A stretch of 64,000 nt of DNA from the NCBI GenBank assembly GCA_021203065.1, contig JAJQBX010000018.1, positions 62,001-126,000 on the forward strand, written 5' to 3'. Positions within the stretch are counted from its first letter, which is position 1; each line of letters opens with the position of its first letter. A model generated the notes under the pieces. The model was not told the origin of the DNA. It ran no database searches and saw nothing but the letters and a program-made list of their open reading frames with translations. This DNA is from Oscillospiraceae bacterium. GTDB lineage: Bacteria > Bacillota > Clostridia > Oscillospirales > Ruminococcaceae. Position numbers and translations under genes: made by a program. Positions 19,225-43,655 of this stretch are shown here, in pieces.

Positions 19225-19332
19225 ACAAATAAGCGGGATGCGAAAACCGAACCGCAGACATCCGTCATTTCGTCCGCAGGACAACTCCCCGTTCCTGAGG
19301 CACTATATACGCTCGGTTTCCTACTCTTTTGT
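19225..19332 (-). promoter_or_regulatory. Tetrahydrofolate (THF-I) riboswitch
   Basis: The minus strand matches the THF aptamer layout: GAGTAGG entry, P2 AAACCGA/TCGGTTT, P3 CAGGA/TCCTG capped by ACGGGGAGTTG, the joining GACGAA, and the closing GCATCCCGCTT. P1 can extend through ACAAA/TTTGT. THF riboswitches are known to control folT and folE in Firmicutes. It starts only 12 nt after the pfkA stop codon, with no terminator in between, so it may act inside a pfkA-folT transcript. Confidence 0.82.
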
Positions 19333-41928: not shown

Positions 41929-41955
41929 AAAAAGGGAGCGGACGAACCGCTCCCT
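41929..41955 (-). terminator. Terminator of the large non-coding RNA
   Basis: Minus strand AGGGAGCGG, 5-nt loop, CCGCTCCCT, then TTTTT. Very stable. Confidence 0.85.
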
Positions 41956-42180
41956 CACTATATCAATTTATCACCATATGCTACAGAACCTATTTGGTTC
42001 AATGTTACTTGGTATCAGGTTTTAACTTAGCTTACTTCATCACGCTTGTGGCTACAGCCTCACGGGCTATAGCCCTTGGCTTCAAAATTAACCGGCGTAT
42101 GAAACATGTTATCGTCAAAGCTTGGTATCACTGAGTGTAACGTTGTAGCTCAATTTAAAGTCTTTGTTGGACTCACCCTC

Positions 42181-42222
42181 TCACTGCTGAATTCTGATTT
42201 CGACTTTGTAAGACAGTTTCAT
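42181..42222 (-). CDS. 13-codon micro-ORF 2 inside the large RNA
   Basis: AAAGGA lies 10 nt before the ATG; reads MKLSYKVEIRIQQ then TGA, directly followed by GAGGGTGAGTCCAACAA. Same length as micro-ORF 1; could be coincidental. Confidence 0.25.
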   Translation of the reverse strand: MKLSYKVEIRIQQ

Positions 42223-42524
42223 GGTGCATCAAATCCTTTCGGGCTTTAAACCTTTTTGATTTGGATTTTCTTGATTTCGTGGGCAAGATATTTTCTTGCT
42301 AAGCAAGTTTACACTTGCTGTCAGTAACTTTGAGTTACTCTTCTATCGTTATTTCAGATAGGTTACAGAATCAATTTCATGCTCTTATCTTCGATCTTGA
42401 GAAATTGGTTTCGTACCTAAGAGAACATCTCGTAATGTGTCAAGTCTGAAGATTGCTTTACTTTTGAATCTGTGAGTCGAGAAAGTTATGCATAGATTGC
42501 TGGACTCACCTCTTTCGGTTTATT

Positions 42525-42566
42525 TCAGTTGCAAGTTCCGTTTCTTGCTTTTGCCAATACTTTCAT
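42525..42566 (-). CDS. 13-codon micro-ORF 1 inside the large RNA
   Basis: AAAGGAG lies 8 nt before the ATG; reads MKVLAKARNGTCN then TGA, followed by GAGGTGAGTCCAGCAA. The ribosome site is good; no family. Confidence 0.3.
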   Translation of the reverse strand: MKVLAKARNGTCN

Positions 42567-42793
42567 AACAATCGCTCCTTTACTTTCTTAAGACGCGGTG
42601 TTATTTTCCTTTGGTTGGTTTCTGATAGCTCCCTCAGTTCTTGCTTTGCAGATTGCTTACTTGTTTTACAAGTATTGTTTCACAAGTGCCGCCTCGCTTT
42701 AGAAGTTATCTGAGGTTTTCTTACCTCTTCATCGGAACCCTCTCCCTTTTAGTTTTCAGTGACTTTTTTTATTTATCTCTCTTCTGTGATTGT

Positions 42794-42822
42794 ATTATAA
42801 CACACCCGATTTGAAATGTCAA
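42794..42822 (-). promoter_or_regulatory. Consensus promoter of the large RNA
   Basis: Minus strand TTGACA, exactly 17 nt, TATAAT: one of the best promoter matches in the window, with no protein gene behind it. Confidence 0.8.
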
Positions 42823-42923: not shown

Positions 42924-42952
42924 TTGACAAACGGAGCAGTTTTCACTATAAT
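42924..42952 (+). promoter_or_regulatory. Consensus promoter of the DUF1292 gene
   Basis: TTGACA, 17 nt, TATAAT, 34 bp before the ATG. Confidence 0.8.
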
Positions 42953-42986: not shown

Positions 42987-43343
42987 ATGGATGAAATGGA
43001 ATATACACCCGATTTGCTCACCCTCGTCGATGAGGACGGCAAGGAGGAGACCTTTGAACTTATTGACACCTACGAGGAGGGCGACCAGAAGTACTTCGCC
43101 ATGGTTCCCTACTTCGAGGACCCGGATGAACTGATCCAGAACGACGGCGAGCTTATTATCCTCATGTCAGACCCCAGTGGCGACGAGGAGAACCTTGTCA
43201 GCATCGACGACGACGCCGAGTATGACCGCATCGGAAAGATTTTCCTTGAGAGAATCGAGAAGATGTTCGAGGAGTGCGACTGCGAAGACGATGAGTGCGA
43301 CTGTGACGACGAGGACTGCCAGTGTCATCATCACGAGGAGTAA
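42987..43343 (+). CDS. DUF1292 protein with Cys/Asp/His tail
   Basis: 118 residues. The DUF1292 core (LLTLVDEDGKEETFELIDTY, MVPYFEDPDEL, IGKIFLERIEKMF) is normal; after it come about 20 residues made almost only of Cys, Asp, Glu and His (CDCEDDECDCDDEDC then CHHHEE), a likely metal-binding appendage. AAAGGAG 9 nt upstream. The family is small, cytoplasmic and of unknown function, often near yqgF/ruvX, which is found 1.5 kb away here on the other strand. Confidence 0.85.
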   Translation: MDEMEYTPDLLTLVDEDGKEETFELIDTYEEGDQKYFAMVPYFEDPDELIQNDGELIILMSDPSGDEENLVSIDDDAEYDRIGKIFLERIEKMFEECDCEDDECDCDDEDCQCHHHEE

Positions 43344-43395
43344 AAACTTCGCATAGAATAGCTCGTGAGGGCTATACTAAGTAAGAAATTCATTC

Positions 43396-43600
43396 TGCCT
43401 TGCTCGATTAAGCATGGTTTTTATAATCCAACACATATTATAAGGGAATCTCGCTCCGGGTGCGGGGATGCAGACCTCCCGAGGTACGCACGGTTGCTGC
43501 CCCCAGCTTCCCTGTTTCAAGTACCGAGGACGAAGGGAGCACGAAACATCAGGGCTGATACCCACCTGCTTCGTGCGGGTTTTATGTATCATGTGGCGAC
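43396..43600 (+). ncRNA. Candidate small structured RNA
   Basis: TTGCTC, 16 nt, TATAAT (about 43401-43428) precedes a G/C-rich non-coding stretch, in contrast to the A/T-rich flanks. Stems: AGGGAA/TTCCCT (outer), GTGCG/CGCAC enclosing ACCT/AGGT, and GCACGAA/TTCGTGC (near 43541-43577) followed by GGGTTTT as a possible terminator. Not recognised as SRP, 6S or a riboswitch by eye. Could belong to a known housekeeping RNA family that I cannot recall. Confidence 0.4.
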
Positions 43601-43611
43601 AAGGCGGATGC

Positions 43612-43655
43612 CCCCAAAAATTCAACGGCTGATACTTTGATGGTATCAGCCGTTT
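43612..43655 (-). terminator. Terminator of the ECF S component operon
   Basis: 12-bp perfect stem AACGGCTGATAC/GTATCAGCCGTT; on the minus strand followed by GAATTTTTGG. Confidence 0.8.

Follow-up and report, generated by a model that had tools for sequence, protein, structure and literature searches.

Short ORFs lie amid structured RNA in the arrest leader peptides ErmCL and TnaC, and the microcin C type of heptapeptide gene adjoins a peptide-modifying enzyme. In insects, the tarsal-less/polished rice/mille-pattes transcript was first taken for non-coding. Bacteria have two-codon minigenes, for instance in the axe-txe operon: an AUG-codon-stop ORF with its own Shine-Dalgarno (SD) sequence, which is reported to be translated and to act in cis (PMC8708949). 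The locus that we describe here lies in a window of 64,000 nucleotides (the whole stretch of DNA analysed) and bears a likeness to several described systems. Like the insect transcript, whose peptides have about 11 residues, it strings several very short ORFs together; that transcript, however, is eukaryotic and unrelated, whereas the array is bacterial, has an SD element for each ORF, and has many ORFs of only two codons. Like ErmCL, TnaC, and the mgtCBR leader, it has short ORFs in structured RNA, but it has no constant regulated gene and carries several different ORFs in series. OLE, ROOL, and GOLLD are likewise long structured bacterial RNAs, but the array differs from them in its lack of an Rfam match, its modular, variable length, and its micro-ORFs. 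The axe-txe minigene, finally, is single and precedes a protein gene, whereas relatives of our locus carry tandem two-codon ORFs, with no long ORF before the terminator.

No earlier description of the array family was found in the literature searched. None of the papers retrieved joined DUF1292, the domain encoded by its constant neighbour, with noncoding RNA, and the titles and abstract openings of the DUF1292 papers retrieved showed nothing on such an array. By title, nothing alike appeared among the matches listed for polycistronic small ORFs, minigenes, tal/pri, and large ornate RNAs, or among all those for tandem short ORFs.

A sequence-only reading of the window had proposed, on the minus strand, a large non-coding RNA of about 0.86 kb with its own promoter and terminator. 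Both signals are present. The promoter, TTGACA-N17-TATAAT at 42822-42794, has 12 of 12 consensus bases and a TG before the -10 hexamer, and is of the same type as in relatives; the terminator (41929-41956), also found in homologues, is a 10-pair stem (41956-41932) followed by a T tail that reaches 41929. With its start predicted from the promoter, and supported by aligned homologues, the transcript would span 42788-41929 (about 0.86 kb). As proposed, it holds no long ORF: none of at least 40 aa lies on the minus strand within 42822-41929, and the longest on the plus strand within 41929-42822 has 57 aa (list of ORFs of at least 40 aa). The terminator indeed stands ahead of rpe (PF00834 by Pfam), the next gene on the array strand, which has a separate promoter at 41718-41689 (minus). 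Neighbours in the window were named by Pfam (five proteins); the divergent DUF1292 gene (PF06949) at 42987-43343 (plus) is the constant one.

Nor could the locus be assigned to a known RNA family. No Rfam release 15 family (OLE, ROOL, and GOLLD included) matched the array locus at the gathering threshold when the whole 64-kb window was searched, and in E-value mode the locus gave three matches, every one far under the gathering score. In the same mode, 38 relative loci returned neighbouring 6S RNA and, all below threshold, one T-box (L123) and some other matches. Nearby in the window, another perfect TTGACA-17-TATAAT stands ahead of the DUF1292 gene (42924-42952, plus), and a probable 6S RNA lies directly downstream of that gene (43389-43613, plus), its 40.6 bits falling short of the gathering score of 46.4. 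Beside the array, 6S RNA exceeds that score at 13 of 18 genus loci scanned and at 5 of 20 from other genera. The Rfam search of the window also returned a THF riboswitch (19229-19330, minus, 73.8 bits).

What the sequence-only reading missed are repeated ribosome-binding elements and micro-ORFs. All parts that follow are on the minus strand, and peptides are written without the stop that ends each frame. We refer to a strong-SD basic ORF of 7 to 16 codons as X and to the element that often follows it, which has a two-codon ORF or no start, as Y. The first SD element, GGGAGAGGGTTCC (42734-42746), is invariant in 11 aligned sequences, and downstream of it lies micro-ORF 1, ATGAAGAGGTAA (42721-42732; MKR), with the counterparts MKN, MYR, MKM, MRN, or a seven-codon MKRxxxx in relatives. 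Micro-ORF 2, MKVLAKARNGTCN (42525-42566), has the SD sequence AAGGAG at 42575-42580, and its position is occupied in relatives by MKLARSWI, MKLARSGTGDSK, or MRAARSGIC. After it comes the Y element GAAAGAGGTGAGTCC (42502-42516), which by sequence and alignment has no AUG at the usual spacing. The GTGAGTC of this element (42509-42503) is complementary to GACTCAC at 42472-42478, and these pairs do not vary in 11 sequences and are therefore uninformative by covariation. Micro-ORF 4, MKLSYKVEIRIQQ (42181-42222; MKLFHKKEIKI in relatives), preceded by the SD sequence AAAGGA (42234-42239), and a second start-less Y element, GGGTGAGTCCAACAAAGACTTT (42157-42178; invariant in 11 sequences), complete the series. 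Left uncounted were the frames MHNFLDSQIQK, whose AUG is absent from 4 of 11 aligned sequences, MHHETV..., which overlaps micro-ORF 4, and MK. None of the elements in the window bears a two-codon ORF, MKR being the shortest element ORF, and much of the conserved sequence in the window clade falls outside any ORF.

The repeated module is an extended SD element of about AAAGGAGTGAGTCC. We counted the pattern GGN(1-4)[TCG]GA[GTA][TA]CC over 71 deduplicated loci (72.8 kb), each ended at the first AUG ORF of at least 60 codons, with identical post-promoter stretches dropped. The transcript strand holds 212 elements and the other strand 8, counts that are not independent since many of the loci come from genera g1 and g92 and are related; in 100 dinucleotide shuffles the mean was 9.9 and the maximum 16. 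One to two nucleotides past the element, 104 of the 212 have an AUG, 4 a GUG, and 1 a UUG, compared with an AUG at none of the 8 other-strand elements and at a mean of 0.43 (maximum, 2) in shuffles. At the remaining 103, the expected position lacks a start codon. The median SD energy of the element AUGs is -10.7, against -10.2 for the best start of 47 long window ORFs, both calculated with an anti-SD sequence that we assume, because the expected 16S 3'-end string was found in none of the 31 genus genomes. That the element is unique to the array locus was ruled out: a related pattern had 96 matches in the 31 genus genomes, about 28 of them in the array locus, against 14 for a reversed control. 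Elements such as AAGGGAATGAATCCRATG recur elsewhere before AUG in genomes G017, G018, G021, G023, and G027, and perhaps belong to ordinary genes with an extended SD or to a second array.

The ORFs on these elements cluster in length. Among 108 complete ones, 40 have two codons, 16 have seven, 9 have nine, and 16 have 21 or 22, and the longest in the 71 loci has 30. As a control, other AUGs of the same loci give two-codon ORFs in 121 of 1,279 cases. The minigene layout (SD, AUG, one codon, stop) is thus found in 40 of 108 element ORFs, many of them from genus g92; 34 of 39 two-codon AUG ORFs encode Met-Ala, and TAA, TAG, and TGA stops are all used. Several complete, very short ORFs stand in series with no long ORF. 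As for spacing, 127 of 222 strong-SD ORFs of 7 to 16 codons have an element at most 57 nt past the stop, 60 of the 127 at 6 to 7 nt, compared with 49 of 237 weak-SD control ORFs. Lys and Arg make up 22.9% of the residues of these 222 ORFs and Asp and Glu 6.5%. Four longer array peptides had no match in NCBIfam.

Within the genus, BLASTN against 31 genomes found a full-length match, or two pieces covering most of the locus, in 11 (the window's included) and short matches in the others. The conservation to be looked for under the sequence-only reading was seen: the 10 closest homologues are 73 to 84% identical and keep promoter and terminator, for which reason we regard the locus as more than chance, and five of the 10 match in two pieces. 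A strict pattern finds the terminator in 10 of 11 window-clade sequences and a looser one in all 11. When the loci were read, the array was recognisable in 30 of the 31 genomes, and it was not located in G017. By tblastn, 28 of 30 genus loci have the DUF1292 gene in divergent orientation; the sequence of L039 stops short of it, and in L051 nothing matches DUF1292 at E 1e-5. Of two test genes sought downstream, the first found is rpe in 15 loci and a SipL-like gene in 12, and the other 3 show neither of them within the stretch retrieved, the Pfam identity having been checked for the window, L038, L042, and L044.

The size of about 0.86 kb does not hold for the family, in which length varies by gain and loss of whole modules. 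Arrays range from about 0.4 kb in compact loci (e.g., L042 and L044) upwards, and L038 has at least 1.6 kb of modules and 2.8 kb from promoter to rpe. Compact homologues repeat an extended SD, an AUG, and a tiny ORF; L044, for instance, reads MKRHREQ, MKLARSWI, an AUG-less element, MNVISENKHKIL, and MNRRMTA. The unit of ORF1 and ORF2 stands in tandem three times in L041 and twice in L045. When named species genomes were scanned with a pattern, the 24 stretches hit belonged without exception to MAGs bearing the title Oscillospiraceae, Ruminococcus sp., or uncultured Clostridia; from the isolate names we take the sources to be guts, those of rabbit and roe deer among them.

DUF1292 is present in 115 of 128 genomes of the family, and the divergent flank was read in 60 of these 115. 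Within 1.5 kb of DUF1292, at least two elements lie on the divergent strand in only 26 of the 60 and on the opposite strand in 2; outside the window's genus, repeated elements thereby reveal an array in 24 of the 58 genomes sampled. In the 700 nt beside DUF1292, the divergent strand bears a promoter-like site in 30 of the 60 genomes and the opposite strand in 17. In genus g92, 19 of 21 genomes have DUF1292, and all 18 loci with an unbroken flank have a promoter and 3 to 10 elements by a looser pattern, with 0 to 2 on the other strand. Printed relatives outside the genus mostly begin with a longer first ORF (16 to 30 codons, acidic start), followed by alternating X and Y modules. At the level of the order, DUF1292 occurs in 131 of 157 genomes. 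Among 22 loci read from seven other families, 3 of 5 from family f24 (L183, L188, and L197) have a promoter and an element; the rest have a promoter without elements (e.g., L193) or at most one element. At L117 (genome G043) a divergent array begins with the element GGGTGATACC, which has the matching partner GGTATTCCC, and MC, MY, MK, and M frames lie downstream of SD-like elements. A phage origin was rejected: one pattern gave no matches, and an 18-base pattern matched in four contigs, which we take for chance.

The RNA is also structured, as the sequence-only reading had held. Its 860 nt have a minimum free energy of -211.7, against -179.7 +/- 7.6 in 20 shuffles (z, -4.19), and ten pairs of the 3' domain covary. 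Helix P1 joins GCTAC (42145-42149) with GTAGC (41980-41984), and P2 joins GTTAC (42137-42141) with GTAAC (42004-42008), all on the minus strand (GCUAC/GUAGC and GUUAC/GUAAC in the RNA). In each helix, 55 of 55 cells are paired across the 11 window-clade sequences, and 5 of the 10 pairs show double changes (three in P1, two in P2), the strands having been picked by eye with patterns that admitted both letters at variable sites. A further four-base stretch outside the 10 pairs, P2b, was scored in a shifted, non-pairing register. On the whole alignment, RNAalifold predicts 154 pairs, of which 8 show a double change; the covariation term is small (-1.08). In relatives, the first element can pair within its own ORF, with 31 of 32 best sites at offset 27 to 43 of the searched stretch; the partner is altered in L117, and the support from shuffles comes mainly from g92. 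Of 32 ORFs of at least 15 codons, 47% have a shuffle rank of at most 0.05 (mean z, -1.21), but 17 of them are from g92, where the pair hardly varies, and among the 15 others four have z of at most -1.5 and five have z above 0. A hairpin for every element was rejected, such pairing being seen only in ORFs of at least 15 codons, with 3%, 4%, and 8% of the others at the same rank.

Start codons of strong-SD ORFs are kept more often than those of controls. ORFs of 5 to 16 codons were chosen with no criterion but SD and length, in 15 pairs of relatives (of 17 planned, two having been lost to locus deduplication). The AUG was kept in 45 of 52 strong-SD ORFs and the ORF intact in 37, against 25 and 27 of 54 weak-SD controls. 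Of six g92 ORFs, four retain the AUG in all of 18 loci, one in 16 of 18, and one in 14 of 14 alignable loci. Pooled pN/pS shows no coding bias (0.62 in the 52 strong-SD ORFs versus 0.56 in the controls). Silent substitutions were further assessed by position with a permutation that holds the kind of base change. The MKLARSWI ORF is present in every one of 13 compact loci, and all 6 of its substitutions are silent (2.4 expected; p, 0.004); in the MNVNKHKIL ORF of the compact subclade 7 of 12 are silent (2.9 expected; p, 0.007). In the window clade there is no excess, with 4 of 14 silent in ORF2 (3.5 expected) and 3 of 9 in ORF4 (2.9 expected). Six g92 ORFs gave p of 0.12 to 0.66, summing to 69 of 238 silent versus 57.9 expected, and among the six the HDLN ORF gave 10 of 29 (7.2 expected; p, 0.13). 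The synonymous bias that the sequence-only reading had named as speaking against a non-coding RNA is therefore found in two ORFs of the compact subclade, and is absent from the two window-clade ORFs and from the pooled comparison.

Classes picked by peptide pattern are biased by that choice. With this bias, the HDLN (YHDLN-type) peptide (17 loci, five genera) has a pS of 0.653 and a pN of 0.246, the KEIKI class 0.264 and 0.103, the ARSG class over its full length 0.418 and 0.309, and MNVNKHKIL 0.53 and 0.056, while MKLARSWI occurs in 8 silent versions. The ARS core, likewise pattern-picked, is spelled with interchangeable Arg (AGA/AGG/CGT/CGC) and Ser (AGC/AGT/TCN) codons. Coding bias is absent from the VxxKI class (pS, 0.300; pN, 0.282), the SKLKI class (0.124 and 0.222), the MKR/MNR heptapeptides (0.48 and 0.43), and ORF1' of g92 (0.213 and 0.204); the KEYF class, caught at 2 loci, was left out. 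ORF1' ends in a conserved VRSDSF, which we discarded as a sign that proves a peptide, since pN equals pS there and the nucleotides pair with the SD element. General selection on peptides was likewise not upheld once ORFs were taken by position. Judged from these alignments, conservation of the start codons and amino acid-level selection for two ORFs of one compact subclade are supported; peptide-level selection outside those two is unproven.

We believe that the locus is probably a member of a transcript family of gut bacteria, in which a structured micro-ORF array acts by being translated. Of the original claim, the large, structured RNA without an Rfam relative stands, but it is not simply non-coding, being a chain of SD elements of which about half carry an AUG and an ORF of 2 to 30 codons, with the AUGs kept. 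The sequence itself shows elements that favour one strand, AUGs that are placed at them and retained, clustered ORF lengths, modules gained and lost, a silent excess in two ORFs of the compact subclade, and a 3' domain that covaries; we infer translation of the ORFs, handover of ribosomes from X to Y or their holding there, and action via ribosome traffic. In such a scheme, each transcript would have its own promoter and an array of SD elements within locally structured RNA, and the X ORFs would be translated from strong SDs. Y, lying close to or within the usual footprint of the ribosome that ends X, might then permit re-initiation or hold the ribosome there. The transcript may act through this ribosome traffic, and for some ORFs the peptide sequence may matter as well; two peptides of the compact subclade would additionally be under selection for their sequence. 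Action through ribosome traffic, to which we give somewhat less than an even chance, is put ahead of the peptides as the product, which we consider rather unlikely. The latter formerly came first, at somewhat less than even; the position-based tests, which showed no general selection on peptides, lowered it. The same tests took the overall reading from fairly confident to probable, and raised an untranslated RNA from very improbable to improbable.

If the peptides were the product, free or as nascent chains, the transcript would be a polycistronic micropeptide mRNA for basic peptides of 7 to 16 residues. The purely silent changes in MKLARSWI and the position-picked silent excess in MNVNKHKIL argue for this, as do, with the bias of pattern picking, the spread of the YHDLN-type peptide over five genera (17 loci) and the ARS core in varied codons. 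Pooled coding bias is absent, however, none is seen in the window clade, that in g92 is weak or nil, and the ARSG class over its full length has a pN not far below pS. It is conceivable, though doubtful, that the arrays would represent the first bacterial micropeptide-array family: an RNA beside DUF1292 for up to about six basic peptides of 7 to 16 residues, lineage-specific, shaped by module duplication and diversification, and every one linked to an element at which ribosomes re-initiate or are held. A large structured non-coding RNA of the OLE, ROOL, or GOLLD kind, in which SD-like repeats bind protein or RNA and stay untranslated, would explain the low fold energy, the covarying 3' helices, elements that are invariant outside ORFs, and the missing pooled coding bias. 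AUG placement and retention, ORF-length clustering, the silent excess in two ORFs, and a size that varies by whole modules speak against it, and we regard it as improbable.

Far less likely still is a leader or attenuator controlling the downstream gene, here rpe. Short ORFs and hairpins do look alike in such leaders, and rpe is the first of the two test genes downstream in half of the genus loci. Yet a terminator and a separate rpe promoter intervene, and the downstream gene is inconstant (SipL-like in 12 of 30, neither in 3), the steady neighbour being the divergent DUF1292 gene, in 28 of 30 loci; lacking a constant downstream gene to regulate, the rpe attenuator was rejected. The many GGA motifs, some of which resemble the CsrA consensus, would suit a sponge for CsrA, a regulator that binds such motifs, but CsrA (PF02599) is absent from the window's genome, which is scored as 100% complete, in a search that found a match in 3 of 14 control genomes. 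This rules the sponge out for that genome unless the gene is missing from the assembly, and we give it almost no credence. The translated micro-ORF array remains the reading that we prefer, although the lack of pooled coding bias, the 103 start-less elements, the conserved window-clade sequence outside ORFs, the small covariation term, and the presence of two or more elements in only 26 of 60 family genomes weigh against it.

One lesson is of caution: candidate large non-coding RNAs should be screened for SD arrays. With the array, termination-reinitiation and minigene translation also gain a concrete example for testing. Reading frames of 2 to 14 codons escape gene finders and most small-protein surveys, and this family, composed almost wholly of them and standing behind a consensus promoter, spans many genera of gut anaerobes. 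If our reading is true, bacteria can organise units this short, duplicate them, and retain them, be it for their peptides or for ribosome traffic.
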